NCBI RefSeq assembly: GCF_023078475.1
Contig: NZ_CP095741.1
Span: 1,426,001 to 1,490,000, forward strand
Origin: Luteibacter aegosomaticola
GTDB taxonomy: Bacteria; Pseudomonadota; Gammaproteobacteria; Xanthomonadales; Rhodanobacteraceae
Reading direction: 5' to 3'
Length of the DNA: 64,000 bases
Positions within the stretch are counted from its first letter, which is position 1. Every line of letters begins with the position of its first letter. The notes beneath the pieces were generated by a model, which made no database searches, had not been told where the DNA came from, and saw only the letters and a program-made list of their open reading frames with translations. The translations under genes were made by a program, and so were the position numbers. Below, one piece after another: positions 4,988 through 40,553 of the stretch.

Positions 4988-5001
4988 GCCTCCGTGGCTT
5001 T

Positions 5002-5068
5002 TGTAGGAGCGCGCTTGCGCGCGATGGAGGGTGCGATACCTCCCATCGCGTGCAAGCACGCTCCTACA
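5002..5068. repeat. REPIN-like palindrome, 67-bp family, copy 1
   Basis: Starts TGTAGGAGCGCGCTTGCGCG and ends with the complementary GCAAGCACGCTCCTACA. The two ends are inverted REP-like units with the GTAG tetranucleotide outermost. A second 67-bp copy is at 38607-38673. It lies between the M4 and S8 protease genes and could also act as a transcription terminator for the M4 gene. Confidence 0.85.
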
Positions 5069-5159
5069 GTTTTTTCCTACGTATTGGCGCGGCGGCCGCT
5101 GATAGGTCGCCGTTGGCGCATCGCATAGCGTGATCCCTCCACTCAAGGAGGAACCACGC

Positions 5160-11795: not shown

Positions 11796-11890
11796 GTAGG
11801 AGCCCACCCTGTGGGCGACATCTTTCGCGAACACGCTACAGGTCCTGTTGCTCTTTCGCGAACGGCGTCGCCCACAGGGTGGGCTCCTAC
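11796..11890. repeat. REPIN-like palindrome, 95-bp family, copy 1
   Basis: Begins GTAGGAGCCCACCCTGTGGG and ends with the reverse complement CCCACAGGGTGGGCTCCTAC. The middle has GCGACATCTTTCGCGAA and TTTCGCGAACGGCGTCGC facing each other. Each half contains its own small hairpin. Length 95 bp, identical to the other four copies. It lies between acyP and the PCuAC gene. Confidence 0.9.
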
Positions 11891-13089: not shown

Positions 13090-13482
13090 ATGGGAACGAC
13101 CCGCATGCGACAACCTGTCAGTACCTCCACGGCTTTCCTCGTTGGCCTCGCCGGAGCCAGTGCCGTGGCTTTTGGCGCCTTCGGTGCGCATGCTTTCCGC
13201 GGCAAGGTTGACGATGCCGCCCTCGCCATCTGGCACACGGGCGTCGAGTACCACTTCTGGCATGCGCTGGCGTTGTTCGCGGGTGTGTTGGGCTTACCGG
13301 CGGGCCGTGCACGCCACGTGGCGCTGGCGCTGTTCGGCATTGGCATCGTCGTGTTTTCGGGCAGCCTGTATGCGCTGGCCCTGGGCGCGCCGCGCTGGTT
13401 CGGCGCGATCACGCCGATCGGGGGCGTGGCGTTCATCGCCGGCTGGATCGCCGCCGCGATGTCCCTGAGAAAAATCGTGTAG
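13090..13482 (+). CDS. DUF423 family membrane protein
   Basis: 130 residues and four membrane helices. The family signature GLAGASAVAFGAFGAHAF is near the N-terminus, followed by WHTGVEYHFWHALALF and GSLYALALG. Function unknown. Starts at 13090 or 13105 are both possible; neither has a strong ribosome site. The TAG stop (13480-13482) lies in the GTAGGAG end of the 95-bp REPIN. Confidence 0.88.
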   Translation: MGTTRMRQPVSTSTAFLVGLAGASAVAFGAFGAHAFRGKVDDAALAIWHTGVEYHFWHALALFAGVLGLPAGRARHVALALFGIGIVVFSGSLYALALGAPRWFGAITPIGGVAFIAGWIAAAMSLRKIV

Positions 13483-13573
13483 GAGCCCACCCTGTGGGCG
13501 ACATCTTTCGCCTCATCCCAACAGGCCCTGTTGCGGTGTCGCGAACGGCGTCGCCCACAGGGTGGGCTCCTAC
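13479..13573. repeat. REPIN-like palindrome, 95-bp family, copy 2
   Basis: Same ends as copy 1 and exactly 95 bp. Its first TAG is the stop codon of the DUF423 gene. The central loop differs (CCTCATCCCAACAGGCCCTG), showing that the ends are conserved more than the middle. Confidence 0.9.
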
Positions 13574-13690
13574 GTTGAGGCGAAGATTGTCGCCCACAGG
13601 GTGGGTTCCTGCGTTGAGGCGAAAGATGTCGCCCACAGGGTGGGCTCCTGCGTTGAGGCGAAAGATGTCGCCCACAGGGTGGGCTCCTAC
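13574..13690. repeat. three tandem 39-bp right-half REP units
   Basis: Three direct copies of 39 bp follow copy 2 without a gap (13574-13612, 13613-13651, 13652-13690). Each has GTTGAGGCGAAAGATGTCGC then the CCCACAGGGTGGGCTCCT(G/A)C right half. The first unit has small substitutions; the second and third are nearly identical. The inner junctions read CTCCTGC, only the last unit ends CTCCTAC. Confidence 0.9.
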
Positions 13691-27155: not shown

Positions 27156-27250
27156 GTAGGAGCCCACCCTGTGGGCGACATCTTTCGCGAAAACGCCACA
27201 GGTCCTGTTGCTCATTCGCGAACGGCGTCGCCCACAGGGTGGGCTCCTAC
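27156..27250. repeat. REPIN-like palindrome, 95-bp family, copy 3
   Basis: Exactly 95 bp with the same ends and nearly the same core as copy 1. It is placed between two converging genes. Its right end (CTCCTAC, read on the minus strand as GTAGGAG) supplies the TAG stop of the kinase gene at 27247-27249. Confidence 0.9.
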
Positions 27251-34274: not shown

Positions 34275-35852
34275 TCATGCGCCGCGCGGGGTATCCAGCC
34301 TGGCGCGCAGCAGTTCGAGCTGCTGCTGGTAATGCTTGCGCTCCATCATCTCGATGAGCACGCGCAGGCCACGGGCGGAATCCAGGTGCTGGCGCGACCA
34401 GGGCCGCGACCGGCCACGCACGGTCTCCTGCCAGGCGGCGAAGCTCTGCCGGGGCGAAAGACGGGCGCCGGGGATGTTCTCGAGTTTGGCGAGGGCGGGG
34501 TTGCCGGCCCAGCGTACGTTGCGCACCTGTTCGGCGCGCGTCCACACCACGGCATTATGGGCATCCGCCTGCAGCGGCATGAAGATGACCCCCGCGGCGA
34601 GCGCGGTGGCGTCCGGCTCATCCAGCGCGGGGAAGGTCGTGCCCAGTTCATCGGTATGCACCACGCCGGCAATGCCGTCCGGCCCTATGCTCGCATCGTG
34701 CGCACCGACAACATCGCGGATGCGCAGCAACGCCTGCGCATCGGGCAGGTTGCCGTGGCGTATGACGCGGTCGCCGGCGAACACCGCCACGCCGTCGGCA
34801 TCGACTACTTCCAGCAGCTCGGGCGCAAGCGAAGCGAGCAGTTCCGCATCGATGTGCTCGCTCTCGTTGAACGCGGTGATCAGCTTCTCACGCACCGTGA
34901 GCAGCGTGCTCTCCACCTCGATCTTGGCAAGCTCTTCGATGGCCGAGACGCGCGAGGCAAAGGCCCGCGCGATCGCGTCGGCCACTTCGCGCATCTGGTG
35001 GTCGGCGAAGAACGGGCTGTAGTGGTGGCACGAGATCAGGCCCCACAGGCGGCCATTCGTGACGATGGATGCCACGAGCGTGCCCGTGACGCCCATGTAG
35101 CCGAGGTATTCGAGATGCACGGGTGACACGCTGCGCAGCGAGACGTCGGAGAGATCGGTCGCCGCCTGGGTCTGTGGATCAAGCGCGGGCACGATCCGTG
35201 CGGGCACGTACTTGCAATCGCTGATCTGTCGAACGCGGTTGCGCAGGTACAGCGCGCGCGCCTGCACGGGGATATCGGTCGCCGGGTAATGCAGGCCGAG
35301 GTAAGCCTCGAGCTCTTCCACGCGTGCCTCGGCCACCACCTCGCCGTGCCAGTCCCGGTCGAAGCGGTACACCATGACCCGGTCGTAGCCGAGCAGGTTG
35401 CGCACGGCGCGCGCCACGCGCTGCGCGGCGCGTTCCACCGACACGTCGTTCTCGAGCTTGTGCGTGAGGTCGTAGGCCACGCGGATCGGATCGTCTTCGA
35501 AGTAGGCTTCGCGCGGCTCGATCTCGATCATCCAGCGGGTGCCGTAGGCGTGCACGGACGCGTGCCACGTGCCTCCGCGCTGGCCAAGCGGAAACGTTAC
35601 CGGAGTCCAGGCGCTATGCGCCGGCCGTTCGTCGTCATCGAAGAGGTGGGCGGGCAAGGTCACCACATGCTGGAGCGGCGCGCCGAGCAATTCATCGAGC
35701 GGGACGCCGAGCAGGTCGACCGCGTTCTCACTGACCTGCAGCACGCGTTCGTTCATGGCATCCACGACGATCAACACGCCGTGGGGCTGCACAGAGCCGG
35801 GAATATGGATGGGTTCGCGGTCGCAGGCGGTAAGGTCGGGCAGGTCAGACAT
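34275..35852 (-). CDS. bphP: bacteriophytochrome photosensory module without output domain
   Basis: 525 residues. PAS domain with the biliverdin-attaching C10 and IHIPGSVQPHG (about 15-25); GAF domain with the conserved PATDIPVQARALYLRNRVRQISD; PHY domain with the tongue motif PRQSFAAWQETVRGRS and PW. After the PHY domain only about 45 residues of helix remain; no histidine kinase, PAS9, GGDEF or HTH output follows. It should bind biliverdin and switch between red and far-red states, but the signal must pass in trans or through the final helix. Overlaps the bphO stop by 8 bp, so it is co-translated with the heme oxygenase. Confidence 0.93.
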   Translation of the reverse strand: MSDLPDLTACDREPIHIPGSVQPHGVLIVVDAMNERVLQVSENAVDLLGVPLDELLGAPLQHVVTLPAHLFDDDERPAHSAWTPVTFPLGQRGGTWHASVHAYGTRWMIEIEPREAYFEDDPIRVAYDLTHKLENDVSVERAAQRVARAVRNLLGYDRVMVYRFDRDWHGEVVAEARVEELEAYLGLHYPATDIPVQARALYLRNRVRQISDCKYVPARIVPALDPQTQAATDLSDVSLRSVSPVHLEYLGYMGVTGTLVASIVTNGRLWGLISCHHYSPFFADHQMREVADAIARAFASRVSAIEELAKIEVESTLLTVREKLITAFNESEHIDAELLASLAPELLEVVDADGVAVFAGDRVIRHGNLPDAQALLRIRDVVGAHDASIGPDGIAGVVHTDELGTTFPALDEPDATALAAGVIFMPLQADAHNAVVWTRAEQVRNVRWAGNPALAKLENIPGARLSPRQSFAAWQETVRGRSRPWSRQHLDSARGLRVLIEMMERKHYQQQLELLRARLDTPRGA

Positions 35853-36474
35853 GGTGGCCAGGATCCTGGAGCGTCCGTTGGAAGCGCGCGAACATCCGCT
35901 GCGCGCCGGCGATGGCTAGCTGCTGGTGGGCATCCGTCGCGAGTGCTTCATCGAGCACCTGCTGGAAGCGCCGCCAGCGACCCGGGGCGTGTTCGCCAAG
36001 GGCGTAGAAAGCGTGGGGAAGATGGGGGAAGCGCTCGCGCAGGTGGCGCACGATCACCTGGCCGCCAAGCGTCGAACCCTCGATAACGTAAAGCTCGCCC
36101 CAGAAGGCAGCGTCGACGGCCGTAGGAGCCCACCCTGTGGGCGACATCTTTCGCGGAGACATCACAGGCCCTGCGGCGTTATCGCGAAAGATGTCGCCCA
36201 CAGGGTGGGCTCCTACGATATCGGCCGCTAGGGGAGGGATGCGCGAGGCGTAGGGCCACACCGCGGCTACGGCTTCGATATCGGCCGCGCGTTCGGCTTC
36301 CCAGGCGTGGAACAGACGGAGCTGGGCCGCCAGCAACTCGACGTAACCTGCTTCATCCATCGCGCCGGACATCAGCGCGCGCATGCCTGCCGTCGCTTCG
36401 GCGGCATCGTGCGCGGCGCGGGTGCGCTCGCGGAGAAGGGAGTGGGCGAGGGGCTGGGCGGCGGTGCCGTCCAT
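35845..36474 (-). CDS. bphO: heme oxygenase BphO carrying an in-frame REPIN
   Basis: 209 residues. Proximal heme ligand H22 lies in RTRAAHDAAE, and the distal helix has the conserved GELYVIEGSTLGGQVIVRHL. Between the two halves, residues V87-T118 are encoded by a 95-bp REPIN copy (36122-36216) plus one base; the inserted peptide reads VGAHPVGDIFR, then SPTGWAPT at its end. Both flanks stay in frame and match the family. Without the insert the protein would be about 177 residues, so some loop may have been replaced. It supplies biliverdin for the phytochrome encoded next. Starts immediately after the stop of the DUF2007-like gene. Confidence 0.9.
   Translation of the reverse strand: MDGTAAQPLAHSLLRERTRAAHDAAEATAGMRALMSGAMDEAGYVELLAAQLRLFHAWEAERAADIEAVAAVWPYASRIPPLAADIVGAHPVGDIFRDNAAGPVMSPRKMSPTGWAPTAVDAAFWGELYVIEGSTLGGQVIVRHLRERFPHLPHAFYALGEHAPGRWRRFQQVLDEALATDAHQQLAIAGAQRMFARFQRTLQDPGHHV
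36122..36216. repeat. REPIN-like palindrome, 95-bp family, copy 4, inside bphO
   Basis: Exactly 95 bp with the same terminal GTAGGAG/CTCCTAC and the core GCGACATCTTTCGC. Unlike the four other copies it lies inside a coding gene. Read on the minus strand the element is open in the bphO frame through all 32 codons. Confidence 0.92.
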
Positions 36475-38212: not shown

Positions 38213-38611
38213 ATGACCAACGCATCACGCAAGTTCATGCTGGCCGTGCTCGCGGCGCTGCCGCTCGCTGCCTTCGCGCAAGCCACGACCAAGCCCGCCC
38301 CCGCCCCCAAGCCGGCGCCGCGGCCACATGTTTACACGCCCGTCGCCAGCCCGGCCCAGCAGTGGCAGCGCCAGGCCGATCAGCAGCAACTCATCAACCG
38401 GCAGAACCAGCATGCCGTGCAGGAGCAGCTGCGCCAGAACAACCTGAACCAGCAGCGCAACGCGGCCACCGACCCCAACCTGCGCAACCAGCTGGATAAC
38501 GCCGACCAGCAGCAACAGCAGCAGTACTGTGCGCGCCAGGACAACGCTGTCCGCCAGTATCAGGACAAGCAGGCCACCCAGCCCGCCAACGCCGCCAGCC
38601 GCCCCTTGTAG
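38213..38611 (+). CDS. small exported Gln/Asn-rich protein
   Basis: 132 residues. Signal peptide (about 1-23), a Pro/Ala/Lys stretch (TTKPAPAPKPAPRPH), then a region very rich in Gln and Asn (residues about 50-125). The composition is low-complexity and probably disordered or helical. No family recognised. The TAG stop lies in the end of the 67-bp REPIN that follows directly. Confidence 0.7.
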   Translation: MTNASRKFMLAVLAALPLAAFAQATTKPAPAPKPAPRPHVYTPVASPAQQWQRQADQQQLINRQNQHAVQEQLRQNNLNQQRNAATDPNLRNQLDNADQQQQQQYCARQDNAVRQYQDKQATQPANAASRPL

Positions 38612-38673
38612 GAGCGCGCTTGCAAGCGATTGCGGTGCCGCAAGCCCCCATTGCGCGCAAGCACGCTCCTACA
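38607..38673. repeat. REPIN-like palindrome, 67-bp family, copy 2
   Basis: Starts TGTAGGAGCGCGCTTGCAAG and ends GCGCAAGCACGCTCCTACA; 67 bp, the same length as the copy at 5002-5068. The stop codon of the Gln-rich gene (38609-38611) is the TAG of its left end. It precedes the hutU promoter region. Confidence 0.87.
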
Positions 38674-38760
38674 GGCACTTCATGCTGCGTCGCACATGGC
38701 TCGCGTCGGGGCGCGGGCCCATAATCGGGGATTCGTTTCCACACCCCTACGGAGCCCCCG

Positions 38761-40434
38761 ATGACCGCCGCCACGCGCATCGACACCACCCGCACCGTCC
38801 GCGCGCCGCGCGGTACCGAACTCTCCTGCAAGAGCTGGCTGACGGAAGCGCCGTTCCGCATGCTGCAGAACAACCTCGATCCCGAAGTGGCCGAGAACCC
38901 GGCCGAGCTGGTGGTGTATGGCGGCATTGGCCGCGCTGCCCGCAACTGGGAGTGCTTCGACGCGATCCTGCGTAGCCTGCGTGAATTGCGCGATGACCAG
39001 ACCTTGCTCGTGCAGTCCGGCAAGCCCGTCGGCATCTTTCCCTCGCACCCGGACGCACCGCGCGTGCTCATCGCTAACTCGAACCTGGTACCGGCGTGGG
39101 CGAACTGGGAGCACTTCAACGAGCTCGATCGCAAGGGCCTGATGATGTACGGCCAGATGACGGCCGGCTCCTGGATCTATATCGGCTCGCAGGGCATCGT
39201 GCAGGGCACCTACGAAACCTTCGTCGAGATGGGCCGCCAGCATTACGGTGGCTCGCTGGCGGGCCGCTGGATCCTCACCGCAGGCCTTGGCGGCATGGGC
39301 GGCGCGCAGCCGCTGGCAGCGAGCCTGGCAGGCGCCAGTTCGCTCACCATCGAATGCCAGCAGAGCCGCATCGATTTCCGCCTGAAGACCCGCTACGTCG
39401 ACGAACAGGCGGCCGACCTCGACGACGCGCTGGCGCGCATCGCCCGTTACACGAAGGAAGGCCGTGCGGTCTCCGTCGCCCTGCTAGGCAACGCCGCCGA
39501 CGTGCTGCCGGAACTGGTCCGCCGTGGTGTCCGCCCGGATGCCGTCACCGACCAGACCAGCGCCCACGATCCGGTGAACGGCTACCTGCCGGCGGGCTGG
39601 ACGGTGGATGAGTGGTTCGAGTGCCGCAAGAGCGACCCCGCTGGCACGGCGAGGGCCGCCAAGGCCTCCATGCGCGAGCACGTCGCGGCCATGCTTGCCT
39701 TCCACGAACAGGGCGTGCCCACGTTCGACTACGGCAACAACATTCGCCAGATGGCCAAGGACGAGGGCCTGGCCAACGCCTTCGCGTTCCCCGGTTTCGT
39801 CCCCGCGTTCGTCCGCCCGCTGTTCTGTCGTGGCGTGGGCCCGTTCCGCTGGGTGGCGCTCTCGGGCGACCCCGAGGACATCTACAAGACCGACGCGAAG
39901 GTGAAGGAAATCATCGCCGATGATCCGCACCTGCATCGCTGGCTCGACATGGCTCGCGAGCGCATCAGCTTCCAGGGCCTGCCGGCGCGTATCTGCTGGG
40001 TGGGCCTTGGCCTGCGCCACAAGCTGGGCCTGGCGTTCAACGAGATGGTCCGCAACGGCGAGCTGAAAGCGCCGGTGGTGATTGGCCGCGACCACCTGGA
40101 TTCCGGTTCGGTGGCCAGCCCCAACCGCGAAACCGAGGCCATGCGTGATGGCAGCGATGCCGTCAGCGATTGGCCGCTGCTCAACGCCATGCTCAACGTG
40201 GCAGGCGGCGCCACCTGGGTCAGCCTGCACCACGGCGGTGGCGTGGGCATGGGTTACAGCCAGCACAGTGGTGTCGTCATCGTGTGCGACGGTAGCGAAG
40301 AAGCCGACAAGCGCATCGCCCGCGTGCTGTGGAACGACCCTGGTACCGGCGTGATGCGCCATGCCGACGCCGGATACGAAGACGCCATTGCCTGCGCGAA
40401 AGAGCAAGGTCTCGACCTGCCGATGATCGGCTGA
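38761..40434 (+). CDS. hutU: urocanate hydratase
   Basis: 557 residues, the usual size. NAD-binding and active-site segments are present: [55 protein letters not shown], and [18 protein letters not shown]. It converts urocanate to imidazolone propionate in histidine breakdown. No hutH, hutI, hutG or hutC gene is adjacent: the neighbours are a Gln-rich protein and msrA. A CATAAT box about 40 bp upstream could be its -10 element. Confidence 0.97.
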
Positions 40435-40458: not shown

Positions 40459-40553
40459 GTAGGAGCCCACCCTGTGGGCGACATCTTTCGCCATGTCGCC
40501 ACAGGGTCCCGGGCTCTTCCGCGAACGGCGTCGCCCACAGGGTGGGCTCCTAC
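40459..40553. repeat. REPIN-like palindrome, 95-bp family, copy 5
   Basis: Exactly 95 bp with the conserved GTAGGAGCCCACCCTGTGGG left end and complementary right end; the loop is more diverged (CATGTCGCCACAGGGTCCCG). Lies between the converging hutU and msrA genes, 5 bp from the msrA stop. Confidence 0.9.

Follow-up and report, generated by a model that had tools for sequence, protein, structure and literature searches.

In-frame REPIN within the heme oxygenase gene bphO of Luteibacter and recurrence of REP arms in the same loop across the genus

We analysed a 64-kb stretch of Luteibacter aegosomaticola DNA (the window; its genome is called G000 below), in which bphO, the gene of a biliverdin-producing heme oxygenase of 209 aa, lies on the minus strand at 35845..36474. 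The end of bphO overlaps by 8 bases the gene of a bphP-like phytochrome (34275..35852, minus strand, 525 aa), to which Pfam assigned the domains PAS_2, GAF and PHY; the same scan revealed no kinase or other output domain beyond these three. The bphO ORF was open, and its product matched PF01126 (Heme_oxygenase) over residues 12-204 with E=5.7e-16, as well as solved heme oxygenases by profile. The AF2 model, built on a 48-sequence alignment, had a mean pLDDT of 88.3, and the 50 Foldseek matches listed for this model consisted of heme oxygenases and of fusions containing one (best E 1.1e-4). Profile match, homologues and fold identify the product as a BphO-type heme oxygenase. H22 was invariant in the 48-sequence alignment and aligned with the corresponding histidine of HmuO, whose role we take to be proximal.

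Within bphO, a 95-bp palindrome occupies 36122..36216 on the minus strand (VGAHPVGDIFRDNAAGPVMSPRKMSPTGWAPT), corresponding to nt 259-353 of the CDS and read as codons 87-118 in phase 0, so that the in-frame palindrome reported by the first-pass annotation was borne out. As 95 bp is not divisible by three, the missing base must come from the flanks. The element consists of two inverted REP arms with a spacer: the arm GTAGGAGCCCACCCTGTGGGCGA at 36122..36144 (plus strand), the complement of which codes for the C-terminal part of the insert, and an inverted arm at 36194..36216 (minus strand), which has the same sequence on the coding strand and codes for VGAHPVGD. The two halves were 88% complementary over 48 nt, and as RNA the element formed a potential hairpin with a 34-bp stem (-82.3 kcal/mol, z -15.3). 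The foot of the palindrome carried GTAG, one of the two tetranucleotides (GTAG or GTGG) that mark REPs, and the arm pattern GGAGCCCACNNNGTGGGCGA had 573 exact matches in the 5.09-Mb genome, compared with 0 for a reversed control. In arrangement, foot and copy number the element is a REPIN; it departs from the extragenic position, at which nearly all of the sampled population was found, and lies as a GTAG REP wholly within the ORF of a known protein.

The window contains five copies of this 95-bp family, starting at 11796, 13479, 27156, 36122 and 40459. Taking the one at 11796 as reference, identity was 85-97% for the others and 85% for the bphO copy. The four other copies (11796..11890, 13479..13573, 27156..27250 and 40459..40553, unstranded) match the four intergenic copies that had been claimed, and none was flagged as genic by coding potential. 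The copy at 40459 begins 24 bases past the ORF 38761-40434, which presumably encodes a urocanate hydratase. The copy at 13479 is followed by further tandem arms to ~13690, namely single reverse arms with a 39-bp period at 13571-13690. A second REPIN-like repeat pair with GCGC stems, 81% alike, was located at 5001-5069 and 38606-38674. Elsewhere in the genome, REPINs at L139, L141, L142 and L144 (G000:C1 1.17-1.29 Mb) spanned ~134 bp in stretches of low coding score and had a different but common spacer; they are perhaps a separate sub-family or part of a genomic island.

PF01797, the RAYT profile, had matches in 22/23 genomes. The RAYT candidate of G000 (4321829-4322146, 30.4 bits against a cut-off of 23) has a REPIN of the same class just upstream (4321618-4321710), so this genome holds a RAYT gene flanked by the same REP, and this RAYT would be the mover of the bphO REPIN. 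Target choice by a CT dinucleotide, at which RAYT cleavage has been placed (PMC8266576), plays no part in our reading; by raw count, the two bases before GTAG were CT in 43 and CC in 79 of 255 genomic arms. The REPIN/RAYT system has been described as two inverted REPs with a spacer, in hundreds of copies in extragenic space (PMC3116915). The Luteibacter elements share the inverted REPs, the spacer, the hundreds of copies and a RAYT-like gene beside one copy, whereas the bphO copy, unlike the extragenic elements of that account, lies within an ORF.

We then took a census of REP clusters, which for G000 covered 471,889 bases (the window and stretches chosen around REPs) with 137 clusters and 255 GTAG-bearing main-class arms, under half of the 573 genomic arms. 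An ORF that ran through the cluster and 45 codons beyond it at either end was present in 45/137 cases in G000, 8/23 in G009 and 19/34 in G003, a frequency that is the chance expectation in GC-rich DNA. When positive codon scores on both sides were also required, 3 clusters remained in G000, 0 in G009 and 1 in G003; with codon scores trained on the window alone, this version kept 14/14 known bphO cases. A stricter variant flagged nothing but bphO, and recovered only 7/14 known bphO cases. The in-gene elements left among the clusters of the three genomes were bphO and one single arm of another class (L247:1803-1824, G000:C1 ~1759453), read in frame as CRSALARD in an aldose 1-epimerase ORF (PF01263, E=1.8e-28). 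The Pfam match of that ORF covers residues 79-310 and starts after the arm; the earlier part was assigned by codon score and by likeness judged by eye. Four further candidates were rejected: the ORFs at L240 and L192 lacked any Pfam match and were taken to be antisense, the element at L114 precedes the likely start codon, and L198 had no convincing ORF. Among 97 G000 clusters, 22 lay between convergent genes, 11 between genes of the same direction and 4 between divergent ones, the arrangement at the other 60 being unclear. These results agree with the expectation that REPs are almost always extragenic and that an in-gene copy is unusual, as far as the censused clusters of G000, G009 and G003 go.

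For comparison across species, the BphO loop was taken as the stretch between the YxSR and LYVxEG motifs in 21 species of the genus and two outgroups, and the arms had a common form: GGAGC, a stem of four bases, a centre of two or three, the complement of the four, and GCGA. BphO was present in 21/23 Luteibacter genomes, with no stop within the main match in any of the 21; at E 1e-8, BphO matches occurred in 18/197 sampled genomes of the family, 17 of them from the same genus. An exact REP arm was found in the bphO loop of 14/21 species, rising to 16/21 at one mismatch, compared with 0/2 outgroup loops; outside the loops, the 23 loci (77,604 bases) had no arm even at one mismatch. When up to two mismatches were accepted, arms were detected in 17/20 loops, a level reached by 0.4-5% of shuffled loops. 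The loop arms fell into seven stem classes (CCAC, GCAC, GCGC, GGAC, CGAT, CGCT and GAGC), of which GGAC is doubtful: the G018 arm of this class falls partly on codons alignable with those of ordinary loops and may be fortuitous. The loops of G008, G004, G016 and G011 held no arm, and that of G019 held a two-mismatch remnant only; since arm-less loops exist, BphO does not need the REP element. With exact arms of seven classes in 14 of the 21 species, the bphO REPIN is no isolated accident of one strain.

To compare loop and genome, we counted the matches of each genome to the pattern that its exact loop arm fits, own loop included. The loop arm classes were mostly those resident in the host genome: in 9/14 species the pattern had 29-615 matches, namely CCAC in G000 (573) and G012 (65), CGAT in G017 (501) and G009 (525), CGCT in G013 (535, beside 534 for CGAT), GCGC in G003 (615), G005 (97) and G015 (29), and GCAC in G022 (38). 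Other classes in G000 amounted to 8 GCAC arms, 1 GCGC arm and 0 arms each of CGAT, CGCT, GGAC and GAGC. The loop class was outnumbered in four of these genomes, by CGCT in G005 (339) and G015 (297), by GCAC in G012 (160) and by CCAC in G022 (152). Low counts were obtained for the GCGC arm of G002 (8 matches, loop included), the GAGC arm of G007 (6 matches, three of them in the loop) and the GGAC arm of G018 (1 match, the loop itself). The CGAT arm of G020 has a three-base centre, and its own-genome count of 0 is for a two-base-centre pattern that it does not fit; conversely, the exact GCGC arm of G014 has a two-base centre, and its 43 genome matches are for the three-base-centre form. Although assemblers can go wrong at such repeats, an assembly artefact across this one is barely credible, given that the genome is one contig with an uninterrupted ORF and that other species' assemblies carry REPs in this loop as well, most of them of a class that the respective genome contains.

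The loop measured 47 aa in G000. Loops of the genus that lack a REP were shorter, with 29 aa in the closest such relative and 33-41 aa in three others, and the two outgroup loops had 30-31 aa. The claim that the insertion added about 32 residues stands in that the REPIN encodes ~32 of the 47 loop residues; the net gain is smaller, because REP-free loops are already 29-41 aa long. In the AF2 model, mean pLDDT fell to 56, 47 and 57 for residues 91-100, 101-110 and 111-120, compared with 94-98 in the other blocks and 78 and 70 in the two terminal ones. Helices 79-89 and 122-148 border the loop, the latter being, we assume, the distal helix; helix 79-89 reaches into the insert, whose first three residues form its end. 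The insert is thus predicted to form a disordered loop between helices, in line with the surface loop that the first-pass annotation had suggested be sought by modelling. Its further suggestion of impaired biliverdin production found no support: the proximal-His position is kept, flank dN/dS was 0.13-0.27 in nine chosen pairs of relatives, and bphP adjoins bphO in 20/21 loci, the remaining one lying at a contig end. Judged by these codon ratios, the bphO flanks are under purifying selection, and the heme oxygenase presumably stays active despite the insert.

A role of the hairpin itself in RNA or DNA, for example in setting the BphO:BphP ratio with the coding incidental, might be read from the 34-bp stem lying in the bphO mRNA upstream of bphP and from the 10/21 genus loops that folded with z < -3 (60 mononucleotide shuffles each). 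We consider this quite improbable, as the z of the loops ranged from -9.9 to +1.7, the loops with single or decayed arms were unexceptional (G018 +1.6, G020 +1.4, G019 +0.9, G021 -0.3), as were the arm-less ones, and translating ribosomes would be expected to open the hairpin.

Reading frames were compared over ten GTAG-bearing forward arms in the loops, seven exact and three with one mismatch. None of the ten was in the frame in which TAG is a stop, which follows from the ORFs being open; they split seven to three between the two open frames, whereas all three frames occurred among reverse arms. At the level of sequence, this shows loop REPs fitted to the frame. The arms in different frames go beyond what a same-length swap can produce and favour separate insertions, in which an old REP was lost and a new REPIN of a resident class was gained in each lineage, always at the one site, whether tolerated or preferred, and without any replacement in place. 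Two further observations point the same way. The G000 insert resembled genomic REPINs over its full length (best 93%, with 40 of 306 candidates scored), and spacers of the G000 group gave near-equal z in both orientations (G000 against G022, 7.7 forward and 7.1 reversed; against G002, 5.7 and 4.7), so that they do not settle descent or orientation. We regard such separate insertions as a realistic possibility, at somewhat under even odds, and other loops speak against them. G017, G013 and G009 (clade support 97/93) had a common spacer (z 7.7-9.9) under CGAT, CGCT and CGAT arms, respectively, while sampled genomic spacers matched these loop spacers poorly (best z 1.6 for 4 from G013 and 2.3 for 11 from G009; 3.5 for the G013 loop spacer against G009 genomic spacers). 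Likewise, G007 and G012 (support 91/100) had, by eye, two arms at like flanks that differed in class, GAGC versus CCAC. The swapped classes in the G017 and G007 groups have arms of equal length, which is what a need to keep the frame would lead one to expect, although two cases are few.

The loop spacers of G005 and G015 (support 99/95) were reverse complements of each other at 44/51 bases (z 12.8, compared with 5.7 forward), and the ORF was open in both orientations. Among ten spacers taken from elsewhere in the G005 genome, the closest match reached z 5.4 with either the G005 or the G015 loop, and the protein P0042 carries a G015-like peptide. Opposite insertion of two related REPINs would also produce this pattern; we infer that inversion of the spacer in place is the likelier event.

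Selection might also have retained the long loop because its peptide assists in docking to the phytochrome or to a reductase, consistent with the long REP loops of most species and the conserved bphP neighbour. This seems distinctly unlikely, because the peptide is unrelated across many species, is read in differing frames and was once apparently reversed, because the short-loop species G008 retains bphP, and because AF2 assigned the segment no confident structure.

Taken together, these results suggest, with a probability of roughly 0.78, that a permissive bphO loop is a recurrent REPIN niche in the genus, with arms at least partly replaced by resident classes and the enzyme under selection. 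One surface loop of BphO, from the helix end near residue 89 to the helix start near 122, would tolerate almost any open peptide; elements moved by RAYT would enter it, and only those insertions or variants that keep the frame would survive. Arms in the loop would give way, at least in part, to REP classes that the genome already carries, probably by recombination or conversion, and the interior of the element could flip, while the heme oxygenase would remain under purifying selection and presumably active. A fuller version, to which we give nearly even odds, would have the coding site in concerted evolution with the REPIN population: arms would be converted in place repeatedly to resident classes, the interior would be flipped by recombination between the inverted arms, new peptides would be written into one loop, and frame-neutral swaps of the same arm length would survive. 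In the gene tree, 6/20 forks were firm, too few for the tree to fix the number of insertions. Arm classes required 14 changes on this tree (minimum 8; shuffled mean 14.8; as low in 72/200 shuffles), the classes of the decayed arms of G001, G019 and G021 being labelled by eye; with as many changes as after shuffling, arm class does not clearly follow descent.

The Rickettsia palindromic elements (Ogata 2002; Claverie and Ogata 2003) reportedly lie in frame in proteins that likely work, and are said to be of CGTC type, or RPE-1, and to occur in many genes. The comparison made with them earlier is fair as a concept, the bphO REPIN likewise being a palindrome in frame in a likely working protein. 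By description rather than by sequence, the Luteibacter elements differ in being GTAG-type REPINs found almost only between genes, and their GTAG foot speaks against an element of CGTC type. Higgins et al. 1988 reportedly asked, by the title of their paper, whether gene conversion is a mode of REP evolution. In-gene REPs are already known, and in the literature consulted the extragenic position is usual but non-obligatory. Di Nocera et al. 2013 (PMC3733652) described GTAG and CGTC REPs in frame inside known proteins, for which loops or linkers were suggested, and reported different REPs at about the same site of recB in X. campestris and X. oryzae. The bphO REP is likewise read in frame in a known protein, and differs from the cases in that account in that one loop holds seven REP classes in 14/21 species, with common spacers beneath arms of differing class and, in one case, a spacer turned round; the main text of that paper, whose gene list is in Additional file 3, nowhere uses the word 'heme'. 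Different REP classes have also been described at orthologous RAYT loci of related strains (PMC3686654), a similar class difference at syntenic places, except that those lie beside RAYT genes and the change here is inside an enzyme gene. We found no account of REPs in bphO, or of a coding loop with REP classes changing genus-wide, in full-text searches confined largely to articles outside the subscription journals and to main texts; it is this genus-wide recurrence and class turnover in one coding loop that we did not find described. At a coding site, where the flanks can be aligned and the frame has to be kept, insertion, arm replacement and inversion become separable, a distinction difficult to make in intergenic DNA. 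The bphO loop suggests that 'extragenic' elements can repeatedly supply protein sequence at one permissive place, and elements that normally lie between genes seem to keep rewriting part of a selected enzyme.

At the protein level, REP-type peptides were found in 34/46 BphO loops drawn from 48 homologues, compared with 6% of shuffled loops, using motifs drawn up after inspection of the loops; 26 of the 34 held both left and right types. Two homologues known from protein alone, P0035 and P0032, had BphO loops of 121 and 61 aa, which resemble five and two tandem REP units (VGADFVGDESTPTQDPHRRS), respectively, and read like an expansion of the REP element within the protein.
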